DNA from: Candidatus Bathyarchaeota archaeon
GTDB lineage: Archaea; Thermoproteota; Bathyarchaeia; Bathyarchaeales; Bathycorpusculaceae
Length of the DNA: 36,915 nucleotides
Reading direction: 5' to 3'
Assembly: GCA_003589585.1 (NCBI GenBank)
Contig: QYYE01000005.1
Coordinates: 1 to 36,915, forward strand
A program made the translations under genes and the position numbers. Shown piece after piece: positions 14,312 through 36,488 of this stretch (positions are counted from its first letter, which is position 1; each line of letters starts with the position of its first letter). Below the pieces are notes generated by a model. The model saw only the letters and a list, made by a program, of their open reading frames with translations. It was not told where the DNA came from and did not search any database.

Positions 14312-14660
14312 TTTTTTTCACCAATAGTATGCATGCCACATCGGAATTTAAGCTTTACAAAACTGGATTCTTCTCTTTATGTGGGTGCGGCGGTTTTACG
14401 GCTGCACAAGAATGCAATTGGGGGCGGCTGCTTTTTGGGTTTGTGATGTTTTTTGGCGTCTGTTTTGGTGTGGGGTAAGCGTTTTCTTGCACATGCGGTA
14501 CTTGGCTGCATGTTGGAGGCGCATTCTTGTGGTTGTGGATGCATGTATCGTTTGCTTTTTTTCTCACAAGAATCAATGAACAGCAATGGTCAGCGTAGTG
14601 CAGTCGGACTCTAGCATGGCCCTTCAATGGCTCCTAAGCATATCTCACCCCAAAAGCCAC

Positions 14661-14690
14661 CACTCAACCGCCGCCTATAAGCAGTTTTGC
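14661..14690. repeat. 30-bp direct repeat, copy 1
   Basis: It begins CACTCAACCGCC and ends TATAAGCAGTTTTGC. It matches copy 2 (15052-15081) at 29 of 30 positions, 391 bp away, in the same orientation. Confidence 0.85.
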
Positions 14691-14774
14691 CGCTAAAAAA
14701 GCAGAAGATAAAACGCCTTTTCCAAACAACAAAACAAAAGCAGATTTTGCTGCTTTGTCACCTACCCCCTCCCC

Positions 14775-15010: not shown

Positions 15011-15051
15011 CTATAGGGTAGCTTCAAGCCATCTTCCACATCCAAACCACG

Positions 15052-15081
15052 CACTCAACCGCCACCTATAAGCAGTTTTGC
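15052..15081. repeat. 30-bp direct repeat, copy 2
   Basis: The second copy of the element at 14661-14690, with one G-to-A difference. Flanking sequence shows only weak similarity (CCAC just upstream in both). Confidence 0.85.
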
Positions 15082-15176
15082 GCTTCAAAAAGACGAATAA
15101 AATCAGCAAATGCAGCAGAAAAAAGCTTAGCCAACAAAGCAAATAAAGAATGTATGCCATTCATGGACTTCTGCTT

Positions 15177-32245: not shown

Positions 32246-32313
32246 AAAAACACCGATTTACTAGAGCTTTTGGGTAATAAAAATTGGTATGGATTAAACT
32301 TACAGCACTCTAA

Positions 32314-32409
32314 GGGTTTGCTGAGGCTCTGAACATTCTATAGGAGAAAAAAATGCAAAACTAATCCGATGACTAATAGTCACCGTTAATAGCCAGAGCC
32401 TTCTCAGCC
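32314..32409 (-). ncRNA. Structured leader element, copy 1
   Basis: 96 nt, near-identical to copy 2 (35209-35308). Read on the minus strand it forms an outer stem (GCTGAG/CTCAGC then GCTCTG/CAGAGC, with a 3-nt AAG bulge), an inner hairpin CGGTGAC-TATTA-GTCATCG, and a second hairpin GCATTT...GAATGT around TTTTCTCCTATA. It lies between the stop of the propeller gene and the start at 32245. It therefore acts either as a leader for the two small genes or as part of a longer transcript. A weak T-run terminator sits just upstream of it. Confidence 0.6.
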
Positions 32410-32431
32410 TCAACTTTTGCCTATGCAAGAA

Positions 32432-32446
32432 CTAAAAAAGGGGAAA
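32432..32446 (-). terminator. T-run after propeller gene
   Basis: On the minus strand CCCCTTTTTTAGT occurs about 25 bp after the stop of the 846-residue gene. This is a plausible archaeal terminator, and would require a separate promoter for the downstream small genes. Confidence 0.4.
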
Positions 32447-32466: not shown

Positions 32467-35007
32467 TTATGGACGCTTTCTAAGCATTAGCATCATTAAA
32501 GCGCCGACTATAACGATTGTAACAATAATTCCAGCAACAGCAGGAACAAAGTACATGTCGGCAACAGATGCCGGTCGTTCTGTTGGAGTAGCGGTAACTT
32601 CAGGCGCAGCATCAACTGCGAAAGATGTTAATGCAAATGAAGGCCAGTAAGATTCGCTGCCAGCAAACGAGGCATATACCGTGTATTGCCCTGGGATATC
32701 AGGTGTCCAGTTGAATGTGAAGAACCCGTCAATGCTTGTTGCTGTGCCGATTTCTCTGTAGTTGCCGTTAGCATCGATTACACTTAAAGCGATTGGAACG
32801 CCTGTGACATCCATCGGTCGTGGCTTTTGCATGTAAACGTACTCCATCCATGCACCCTGACTTGCATCTGACACACATGGTACACCGTTTGGAAAACGAG
32901 CAGCCTGTTCTTTCTGTTTTGTACCAGCAGCAATATCAGTAATTGTGCCTCTGATGACAATGGAGCCTCCGAGGGTCGTTGCTTGCATCGGTGCTTCTAC
33001 AGTTATAGCGCTAGGACCTTTGCCGACACAGTAGATTTGCATGTCATAGCAGTTGAGGAAGACAAAGAAGCCATCGGCTATGATGTCATTTTGCCCAACG
33101 TACATGCCTGTGCCCCAACCCATTAAAGTCCACAGTTCTTCGCCAGTATAGGCATCGATACATCGGTATCGCACGTCTTTGAACCATGGTGAGTCAGGGG
33201 AATGTTCAGTTGTTCCAAGGTAGACTTTTCCGTCAGCAATAACGTCCACGAAGATGGGGTAGTGACCATAGGAAGTTCCAAGACCTGCGTAAGTGCTGTT
33301 GCCTGGTCCACCGTTGCCGTAGGTCCAAAGCAGGTTTCCGTTCTTTATGTCATAGCAGTAGAGGATTCCGTCAAAGCCAGAGCGGTATAGATTGCCGTAT
33401 GCAGCTAGAGAAACGCATCTCATGGTGTCCCATTGTGCTTCTTCAGGTATTGTAGTCCATACTTGGCTTCCATCAGTTAGGCTGAAACCAGTTAATCTCA
33501 TGGTTTCTTTGTCCTCGGTTACGAAGGTGCCTGCTTCAGCATCAATTGCTATAAGCGTCCGTGTGACGTTGTTTGGTGCCTCAGGATAGTATCGCGTCCA
33601 AAGCACTTGACCTATGGAACCCGGCTTCAAACTAATCGCCGTTACATTTGCGCCTGCTCCAATGTTTCTGGGTCCCGTTCCGAAGCTGCCTTGCGTAAGA
33701 AGCAATACCTTGTCAAAGACGACATCTCTAAAGATGCTCCATGTTCCTGCACCTAACGATGGTATGGTTATGTTCCAATCGTAGCACGATGCTAAACTAG
33801 CGTTCGCTGTCCCTGAATACCAAGTTCCGACACCCGTACCAGCGCCTCCACCGAATACTTTAGATGAGTTCCACTGGGCTAACCATTTGCCTGCAGAGTT
33901 AAGTTGGTAGCGAAGTATCTCTCCTTTAGGTCCTGCAGCCTCTGTGCCTGAAGGAACGTTTGTGATGTTCATGGTTGTGACGATTCCTGTGCTTGGGTCG
34001 TAAGCTCTTGCAAAGTTGCTGGTGAACAAGAGGCCTTCAGGAAGAACGCCGTGTTGGTTGCCAGTATCGAAAGCATACAAATAGCCAAATGTTGGGTTAC
34101 CTATGCCTGTAGTGTTGGTTCTCCATAGTTCTTCTCCAGTGCGCAAGTCAACACAAACATAGGAGCCGCTGGTACCTGAATTGCCGTAAGGTTCTGCATA
34201 GTAGAGTCTTCCATGCATAGCGATGGCACTGCCGAATCTTGTATTGTATGAACCTCCCATGTAGTATGTGTTGCCTGAAGTGCCGACTCTGCTTCCTCCA
34301 ACAACTCCGCCGTCCTGGATGGGCTTAGACCACATTACGTGAGCGCTGTTAGGTGCGATGCCGTCAGGCTGGAATCTGGCGTATCCTGCGCCGCCAGTGG
34401 AGGTTGCGCCAGTGCGAATGTATGGACCGTTCAGCCAGTTTGACGAGATGGTCCACCAGTCAGTGTTTTGTCCTTCGATTGGTCGTGTCCAGTACTCTGC
34501 CGGTAGTGGATAGCTAGTTATAGGACTAGGCAAAGATTCATCATGGACTGCAAGTGTTGTTGTTGCGCTTGCGCCTTTGAAGACATCGTTGTTATAAGTG
34601 CCGCTCCAAGTGTAGGTTTGTCCCTTGTACTCAAAGAGTAAAGTATAGTCTCCAACCTGATCAGGTGTATATGAGTAGAATTGTATGCCGGTTGTGTCGT
34701 CGATAATGGGCCACTCTTTTATCTCTGTTTTGCCGTCGGGCTTTGTTATTGTAAGTTTGTAGTCATGGCGTCTAATGTCGTTGGTCACGGCTGCCGAGGG
34801 TAGGGGGGTGTCAACCCACATGAAAATCATCACCCGCTGACCTACTCCTACTGGATCTGGTTTAGCAATAACATAGGCAAAGGACGGGATGTCCCATGGC
34901 GGTGTATGTGCATCAGTAGCTGGTAAAAGAATAACCGAAGCAAACATAGCGGTTACTAGAAATAAAGCAATTGTTGTTGTTTTTGTTTTGCCAATTTGTA
35001 TTCTCAA
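32467..35007 (-). CDS. Secreted PQQ-like beta-propeller protein with C-terminal TM
   Basis: 846 residues. A signal peptide (IALFLVTAMFASVILLPA, cleavage near ATDA-H, residue 33) is followed by an Ig-like domain (to about 150) and a WTRPI linker. The eight-bladed-type PQQ propeller has blades ending in 'G-LYC-D-NG--LW' (GGSYVCVDLRTGEELWRTN-like, ILYCYDIKNGNLLWTYG, YRCIDAYTGEELWTLMGWG). A second Ig-like domain (about 690-800) and a membrane anchor (residues 820-842) then RKRP complete it. It should be a surface protein. The start is TTG 35007 behind GGGAG. It is a paralogue of the gene cut by the left edge of the window, and copy 2 of the structured element lies upstream. Confidence 0.88.
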   Translation of the reverse strand: MRIQIGKTKTTTIALFLVTAMFASVILLPATDAHTPPWDIPSFAYVIAKPDPVGVGQRVMIFMWVDTPLPSAAVTNDIRRHDYKLTITKPDGKTEIKEWPIIDDTTGIQFYSYTPDQVGDYTLLFEYKGQTYTWSGTYNNDVFKGASATTTLAVHDESLPSPITSYPLPAEYWTRPIEGQNTDWWTISSNWLNGPYIRTGATSTGGAGYARFQPDGIAPNSAHVMWSKPIQDGGVVGGSRVGTSGNTYYMGGSYNTRFGSAIAMHGRLYYAEPYGNSGTSGSYVCVDLRTGEELWRTNTTGIGNPTFGYLYAFDTGNQHGVLPEGLLFTSNFARAYDPSTGIVTTMNITNVPSGTEAAGPKGEILRYQLNSAGKWLAQWNSSKVFGGGAGTGVGTWYSGTANASLASCYDWNITIPSLGAGTWSIFRDVVFDKVLLLTQGSFGTGPRNIGAGANVTAISLKPGSIGQVLWTRYYPEAPNNVTRTLIAIDAEAGTFVTEDKETMRLTGFSLTDGSQVWTTIPEEAQWDTMRCVSLAAYGNLYRSGFDGILYCYDIKNGNLLWTYGNGGPGNSTYAGLGTSYGHYPIFVDVIADGKVYLGTTEHSPDSPWFKDVRYRCIDAYTGEELWTLMGWGTGMYVGQNDIIADGFFVFLNCYDMQIYCVGKGPSAITVEAPMQATTLGGSIVIRGTITDIAAGTKQKEQAARFPNGVPCVSDASQGAWMEYVYMQKPRPMDVTGVPIALSVIDANGNYREIGTATSIDGFFTFNWTPDIPGQYTVYASFAGSESYWPSFALTSFAVDAAPEVTATPTERPASVADMYFVPAVAGIIVTIVIVGALMMLMLRKRP

Positions 35008-35208
35008 TTTTTTCTATTCTCCCTAGTATGAGTGTTACTTATTTCAATTCGTTTTGTTTATAAGCTTTTTATCATTTTCTCGCTTTCAAAGTAAAATATT
35101 TGAAAAAGCGGAAAAAAAAGAGCTTAAAAAGCTACTATTGTGGAAGAAGGCAATAAAAGTTTTTACCAAAATAAAGATAAGCGTGTTAGTTAAAAACTAG
35201 AGAAGGTT

Positions 35209-35308
35209 GGGTTTGCTGAGGCTCTGAACATTCTATAGGAGAAAAGAATGCAAATGCTAAATCACGATGACTACTAGTCACCGTTAATCTGTCAGAGCCT
35301 TCTCAGCC
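35209..35308 (-). ncRNA. Structured leader element, copy 2
   Basis: 100 nt. Stems on the minus strand: outer 35302-35307 with 35215-35220, 35293-35298 with 35221-35226, bulge 35299-35301; hairpin 35277-35283 with 35265-35271; hairpin 35246-35251 with 35228-35233. A TATA box (35337-35344) predicts transcription starting near 35314, so the element would be the first thing transcribed, about 200 nt before the propeller start codon. Its position and fold suggest a cis-acting RNA. Confidence 0.65.
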
Positions 35309-35336
35309 CCCTTCTTTCCTCATTGCAATCATTTAG

Positions 35337-35507: not shown

Positions 35508-36488
35508 ATGACCAGAATGGATGAAATCAACGCTAAAATTCTAAAAGAGCTACTGAAAGATGGGCGAAAAAGATTTACGAATATAGCAAAAGAATGCAAT
35601 ACCACAAATGATGTCATTGCGAAACGCTACAAACAAATGAAGAAAAAAGGTATTATCGTTGGAGCAACCATACAGAATAGCTCAGCTTGTTATGGCGGCG
35701 ATATCATTGCGTGTATTCACATTATGGCACAGCCGTTTGAAACAGGTAAGATTTTCGGGCTGATTCGAAAAATCCCCCAAGTCTATGCAGTACACAGTAC
35801 AACAATTAATCCAAATATTTCCGTCATTGTGATTCTCAAAACCATTGATGAATTAGACGAAGTTAAACAATCAATAACTAGGATACCCTCCATTCTGGGA
35901 GTAACCACCACTGTTTGGACCGGTATAAGAAATACTCCCGAGAACCTGTCAGTACTTTCCAGCCGAGAAACAGATAACTCCAAAATCGAAAGTAAAATGG
36001 AAAAGACAAGACGCGAGCGCTATGTAAAAACAGAAATTGACCAGGTAGATTCCCAGATTATTGAAAAACTTGCAGTTAATGGACGCAGGCCTTTTAAGAA
36101 AATTGCTGAAGAACTCAACATATCTACCGATACTGTGGCAAGAAGGTATGAGAGGCTCAAGCGTAACCGTGACCTGAGAGTTGTTATTCAAATAAACCCT
36201 GCAAAGATAGGATATGATGCCTTTGCAATTTTTAACATGGCGTTTATTTCTCAAGACGGCTTGTCTAATTACATGGAAACCCTTGCTAAGATGCCCGACA
36301 TAAATTTTATCTTGAAAACAAGCGGCGATTTTGACTGCAGAGTTAGCGTAATGCTAAAAGACATAAACCAGTTGACCACCATTCAAGAAGCATTCATGAA
36401 TATTTCAGGCATAGTCAAGATGGAGTTAGCGGTGGGAAAAGCTTTTGGAGCCTGGCCTTTACCTAAAGAGCTTATATCGACATTCTGA
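35508..36488 (+). CDS. Duplicated and fused Lrp/AsnC regulator
   Basis: 326 residues made of two complete Lrp/AsnC units. Unit 1: HTH (DEINAKILKELLKDGRKRFT, residues 5-55) and RAM domain (about 65-145). A charged linker follows (DNSKIESKMEKTRRERYVKT). Unit 2: HTH (VDSQIIEKLAVNGRRPFKKI, about 178-228) and RAM (FAIFNMAFISQDG ... GIVKMELAV, to about 315). The RAM domains are divergent from each other. Lrp proteins normally dimerise, so this chain may be a pseudo-dimer. The ATG at 35508 or the one at 35517 is the start. A single-unit relative begins downstream at 36644. Confidence 0.88.
   Translation: MTRMDEINAKILKELLKDGRKRFTNIAKECNTTNDVIAKRYKQMKKKGIIVGATIQNSSACYGGDIIACIHIMAQPFETGKIFGLIRKIPQVYAVHSTTINPNISVIVILKTIDELDEVKQSITRIPSILGVTTTVWTGIRNTPENLSVLSSRETDNSKIESKMEKTRRERYVKTEIDQVDSQIIEKLAVNGRRPFKKIAEELNISTDTVARRYERLKRNRDLRVVIQINPAKIGYDAFAIFNMAFISQDGLSNYMETLAKMPDINFILKTSGDFDCRVSVMLKDINQLTTIQEAFMNISGIVKMELAVGKAFGAWPLPKELISTF

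Follow-up and report, generated by a model that had tools for sequence, protein, structure and literature searches.

The window analysed here, a stretch of 36,915 nt from a Candidatus Bathyarchaeota archaeon (contig QYYE01000005.1 of assembly GCA_003589585.1), contains on its minus strand the gene for a secreted PQQ-like propeller surface protein of 846 amino acids (32467–35007; open reading frame, Pfam PQQ_2, E 6.6e-9), which has a C-terminal transmembrane anchor and the terminal sequence MLMLRKRP. The translation-initiation region (TIR) of this gene, CTAGGGAGAATAG, followed by a TTG start codon at 35007–35005, is located at 34998–35030 (minus strand). Two copies of a repeated RNA element are present on the minus strand, where a first-pass annotation had reported them. 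Covariance-model bounds were 35207–35312 for copy 1 (E 2.6e-20; first-pass annotation, 35209–35308) and 32312–32413 for copy 2 (E 6.6e-16), both copies having been included in the model. Copy 2 lies 53 nt past the propeller stop codon, which is the typical 3'-UTR placement; a pyrimidine/U-tract, TTTCCCCTTTTTTAGT, between the stop codon and copy 2 (32431–32446, minus strand) is probably terminator-like. Copy 1 shows a minority arrangement, being located 5' of the propeller gene in divergent orientation to a double-HTH Lrp/AsnC-type regulator (35508–36488, plus strand; domain search). A TATA box had been suggested to precede the outer stem; copy 1 indeed has a TATA-like sequence, TATAACTAA, some 27 nt ahead of its outer stem, but copy 2 is preceded by a stop codon and a U-tract.

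Folding energies of the minus strand were −41.2 kcal/mol (z −4.9) for copy 1 and −33.4 kcal/mol (z −2.9) for copy 2, versus −34.4 (z −3.0) and −24.5 kcal/mol (z −2.1), respectively, for the plus strand; the proposed minus-strand fold is thus stronger than that of shuffled sequence and of the plus strand in both copies. The outer stem with a 3-nt bulge and the hairpin CGGTGAC/GTCATCG, both described earlier, were recovered and are conserved in the family. Its conserved parts are P1, a long closing stem (GGG-GCUGA-nnn-GGCUC / GAGCC-UCAGC-AAA-CCC) with two 3-nt bulges, the hairpin P2, and, linking P2 to the 3' strand of P1, a segment that is largely unpaired. A second inner hairpin, also proposed earlier, forms in both window copies, but the segment concerned is mostly single-stranded in the family, with mean unpaired probabilities of the anti-Shine-Dalgarno (anti-SD) sequence of 0.75–0.87. 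The length of the element is variable without constraint. In an alignment of 82 distinct copies, pairing was seen in 90% of cells, and 253 compensatory cells were observed, versus 80 with shuffling and at most 53 when the partners were slid; fitting of the alignment to the model introduces some bias towards the structure, and slid versions nonetheless drop to 31–44% paired. Compensatory changes were present in 23 of 26 base pairs, i.e., homologues have kept the pairing and not merely the sequence. Since GU/UG cells exceed AC/CA cells about 3:1 on the window's minus strand (137 versus 45 in the 82 copies, an extension of the G-U argument of the first-pass annotation), the coding strand of the adjacent gene is indicated as the structured one, with the caveat that a bias of the same sign would arise from G-T wobble in single-stranded DNA. 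Two candidate motifs were dropped by eye, namely a kink-turn (no tandem G.A pairs after the 3-nt bulges) and a TPP likeness of GGGGCTGAGA (no Rfam match, remaining motif absent).

By DNA search and covariance model, 12 full copies and several partial ones were found in the genome assembly of the window. The 12 full copies (alignment A1) served to build the covariance model R1, which gave matches at E values up to 1 in 22 of 61 genomes, many of these with 8–20 matches. A search of the Bathyarchaeia, as had been recommended, produced many homologues: with the wider model R2 and a cut-off of E 0.001, 42 of 257 genomes were positive, and the matches span two families and 11 genera. A strict sequence pattern matched 17 stretches in one genome per species of 84,980 species, all of them from Bathyarchaeota, and a search of a plasmid collection gave no match. 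No family in Rfam, archaeal riboswitches included, matched the element at the gathering threshold, and relaxed searches of Rfam gave best matches of 9–14 bits versus thresholds of 33–80, in agreement with the earlier view of a new archaeal structured RNA outside the known riboswitches. The element is a real, structured RNA family, which is undescribed as far as searched. A carrier lineage, Ca. Bathyarchaeum tardum, grows in enrichment culture (PMC10477458). Elsewhere in the window an 82-nt direct repeat was noted (14630–14711 and 15021–15102; 72% identical, with the common core CTATAAGCAGTTTTG); similar sequence adjoins two element copies, L006 and L016, and the repeat may be another dispersed one.

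Genomic placement was examined for 148 copies, seven of which were cut by contig ends. Among the 141 informative copies, 124 follow a propeller-type gene of the same orientation, 37–93 nt past its stop codon and after a U-tract; this number includes L007, where the contig starts and the gene was judged from its anchor alone. The genes 5' of these copies encode secreted proteins of about 800–980 amino acids with a hydrophobic C-terminal anchor and a K/R-rich tail; propeller homology was confirmed by protein search for some neighbours, and the others were assigned by size and C-terminus. Placement with respect to genes is non-random, and the statement that the element heads a propeller transcript does not hold for most copies. 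Like 3'-UTR-derived sRNAs, the element has its place in the 3' parts of mRNAs, in coding-strand orientation; with 124 of 141 copies in the 3' region, its location is not the 5'-UTR one of a riboswitch or leader. The strand of the next downstream gene is about evenly split (43 versus 35). Genes with an element have the U-tract before it, at a distance of 20–40 nt; many propeller genes and genomes are without the element, and such genes end in a plain pyrimidine/U-tract. Archaeal transcripts are terminated by aCPSF1 at pyrimidine/U-tract signals (PMC8716108), and the U-tract 5' of the element may end most transcripts, which is a point against the regulatory RNA proposed below. The propeller protein family is present in 37 of 61 relatives and in all R1 genomes with E 0.005 or better; two of the 22 R1-positive genomes (E up to 1) have a single weak match each (E 0.44 and 0.08) and no propeller protein.

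Some further features of the flanks were observed. In family f6 (G048 and G057, loci L061–L080), CTCCC and GGGAG often flank the U-tract between stop codon and element and could pair into a hairpin whose loop is U-rich. A sense-strand SD-like GGAG is present in 35 of 84 upstream flanks versus one of 84 downstream flanks; in many copies (e.g., L098, L100, L104, L107, L116) a GGAG(AAA) of this kind lies 32 nt upstream of P1. Pairing of this upstream mimic with the anti-TIR sequence of the same element was not significant (p 0.05–0.7).

The key feature of the family is the exposed sequence TTCTCCTATA, correctly recognised in the first-pass annotation as complementary to ribosome-binding sites. 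The largely unpaired segment, here called anti-TIR, is the reverse complement of propeller-gene starts in the same lineage, from the SD sequence through spacer and AUG into the first codons. By sequence and complementarity it comprises GCATTTGCATTCTTTTCTCCTATAG in copy 1 (35233–35257, minus strand; reverse complement CTATAGGAGAAAAGAATGCAAATGC) and GCATTTTTTTCTCCTATAG in copy 2 (32338–32356, minus strand); the initiation region of the propeller gene in the window is a site of the complementary type. In the window's genus the segment reads GCAUUUGCAUUCUUUUCUCCUAUAG and the gene starts (U)AGGAGAAAGAAAAAUGCAAA; in family f6 the respective sequences are GUUUUUUCAUUUUUUCACCUUC and GAAGGUGAAAAAAUGAAAAAAC. 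The best matches extend over 22 of 22 and 24 of 25 nt, with coverage from about −14 to +9. Anti-TIR scores were 11.2 with same-clade propeller TIRs versus 7.3 with other genes in the window's genus (p 1.7e-14), and 14.5 versus 7.0 in f6 (p 6.7e-7), these p-values being optimistic because of the non-independence of paralogous TIRs and homogenised elements. Dinucleotide-shuffled propeller TIRs scored 8.6 (window's genus) and 10.3 (f6), below the real TIRs; this background is raised by A-rich TIRs and U-rich segments. The element thus has an accessible segment which is complementary to SD/AUG of its presumed targets above background, as in anti-RBS RNAs. The start codons of the TIRs were chosen by script.

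When whole elements from all clades were compared with TIRs by RNAduplex, no separation was obtained (own gene −19.3, propeller genes of the same genome −21.4, control genes −22.1), a failure attributed to G-rich SD sequences of the controls pairing outside the anti-TIR segment. The segment-restricted test was chosen after this result and is post hoc, several controls being used with it. Better evidence for complementarity comes from a clade swap, where the elements of each clade preferred the propeller TIRs of their own clade (p 7e-7), and from a genome-wide scan, where in three f1 genomes almost every sense match to the TIR consensus was a propeller-family start. In f6 a few sense matches were not at propeller starts. 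Two sites in one f6 genome, G048:C1:2045160-2045220 (L278) and 407132-407152 (L281), match the f6 start-site consensus exactly or with one mismatch and have no long open reading frame behind; they may be degenerate copies of the element or RNA genes that went unrecognised. A small protein gene on the plus strand behind the SD-ATG look-alike was considered and rejected, the peptides being 2 to >20 amino acids long without a common frame.

The TIR of the own gene was matched no better by an element than the TIRs of sibling genes. In the discovery set the own TIR scored worse than permuted ones (11.5 versus 12.5, P 0.0001); in a second set of 47 genes from nine genomes the direction was the same and the effect weak (P 0.29, 0.048 and 0.061 by three measures). 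For the combined sets, to both of which the genome G009 had contributed, self-avoidance was obtained at P 0.0002 or less, in 14–15 of 18 genomes; the data are suggestive of real self-avoidance. Element identity is about 0.76–0.84 within a genome, regardless of protein identity, and about 0.66–0.76 between genomes; next to two pairs of 88%-identical proteins, the elements showed identities of 0.67 and 0.75. This homogenisation could be due either to conversion or copying, or else to constraint by a shared partner in trans.

Among the copies which are not behind a propeller gene, four, in four genera, are divergent to TrmB-type regulators (orphan elements L220, L227, L248 and L104 in G123, G156, G023 and G032, respectively), and two of the four have upstream sequence in common. 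In the window's genome two copies, copy 1 and L005, are divergent to double-HTH AsnC-type regulators. Several regulator-divergent copies carry promoter-like sequence; free-standing copies may be separate RNA genes with promoters of their own, and some may be remnants of tandem arrays after loss of the upstream gene. A membrane protein gene comes after the TrmB regulator in G123 (LPG_synthase_TM) and in G156 (similar sequence); the orphan L006 of the window's genome is also located downstream of an LPG_synthase_TM gene.

Taken together, structure, strand, placement and lineage-matched complementarity are observed features of the element, and on balance it is probably an anti-start-site RNA that has most of its copies in 3' UTRs and represses translation across the paralogous propeller family, mainly in trans. 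The element RNA would be made by read-through of the preceding U-tract or by cleavage at it; its anti-TIR segment would pair with propeller mRNAs encoded in the same genome, over the SD sequence, the start codon and the codons directly after it, and ribosome loading would be stopped, resulting in repression of translation. For all of these events in the cell, from transcription and release to pairing and repression, we rely on sequence comparisons. Action mainly on siblings is proposed because the anti-TIR segment matches the consensus of the family and not its own gene in particular. This observation also bears on a mechanism in cis, i.e., folding back of the element on the start of its own mRNA for autorepression or mRNA circularisation, which would account for the 3'-UTR position together with the complementarity and has a precedent in icaR (PMC3868564). 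Such pairing in cis appears unlikely, since the own TIR is matched no better than others, and worse in the discovery set (P 0.0001), the second set being weak, and since the copies away from propeller genes have no own mRNA to act upon. A first-pass proposal, a riboswitch-like 5' leader controlling the downstream gene, fits copy 1, which lies about 200 nt upstream of the propeller open reading frame and has the TATA-like box; it is largely refuted by placement and hardly credible, as nearly all copies come after a propeller stop codon, the downstream gene is on either strand about equally (43 versus 35), and no riboswitch in Rfam matches.

Two other explanations take the complementarity as secondary or leave it aside. 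A structured 3' end, bound by a protein for mRNA stability, 3' processing or localisation, would be in keeping with the near-invariant sequence and bulges of P1 in two families and with the constant distance from the U-tract; we regard it as quite improbable, since it does not predict that the complementarity should track the start-site consensus of each lineage, nor does it explain the copies away from propeller genes. Very improbable is a function as DNA, with the element as a mobile repeat, or as an attC-like site of recombination or gene conversion at the ends of surface genes whose fold acts in single-stranded DNA. Homogenisation within genomes, at identities of 0.78–0.81 versus about 0.70 between genomes, whatever the adjacent protein and even beside 88%-identical proteins, and the single orientation behind one gene family could be understood in this way, but anti-TIR complementarity and its lineage tracking would not be expected, nor would a placement that is tied to a single gene family and keeps a constant spacing. 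The anti-start-site RNA could perhaps be extended to a mutual-exclusion network, in which the 3'-UTR RNA of an expressed propeller gene would block the starts of its siblings and spare its own, so that one or few surface variants are made per cell, and the free-standing copies beside TrmB and AsnC regulators would act as master switches; this extension is tentative and rather doubtful.

Few archaeal regulatory RNAs are understood, and the Bathyarchaeia, the class carrying the element, are widespread and abundant archaea. Should the anti-start-site function be true, a whole paralogous family of surface proteins would be wired by RNA, with the regulator residing in the 3' UTRs of the targets themselves, and the choice among many archaeal surface variants would become directly testable. 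Mutual exclusion, if true, would amount to an RNA-based exclusive expression of archaeal surface proteins.

The combination of features in the element was not found in the literature searched, most subscription journals being outside its scope; single features have counterparts in known systems. The attC sites of integrons are imperfect palindromes that follow genes at their 3' ends and resemble one another within a genome; the element differs by its anti-TIR complementarity and by its occurrence at mostly dispersed genes, with some short tandem runs. Bacterial 3'-end-derived sRNAs are encoded in the 3' ends of mRNAs and act on other mRNAs (review PMC9438474). The element is likewise a candidate regulatory RNA at mRNA 3' ends for which action on other mRNAs is proposed, but it belongs to another domain of life and would consist of paralogous copies aimed at siblings, with release from the mRNA being presumed. 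In Methanosarcina mazei, sRNA154, sRNA41 and sRNA162 were reported to mask ribosome-binding sites in trans (PMC5867862, PMC3510493), as is proposed for the element in another archaeal group; these sRNAs are products of single intergenic genes with few targets, whereas the element occurs as many near-equivalent copies, which the target family itself carries in its 3' UTRs. In Staphylococcus aureus, the motif UCCCCUG in the icaR 3' UTR pairs with the Shine-Dalgarno region, and translation is blocked (PMC3868564). A 3'-UTR motif complementary to the SD region is thus common to icaR and the element; icaR, however, is a single bacterial gene regulated mainly in cis by a motif of 7 nt within a 3' UTR that differs otherwise, whereas the element is archaeal, has a conserved fold in many copies and a longer complementarity extending through the AUG, and its predicted target is a whole gene family.
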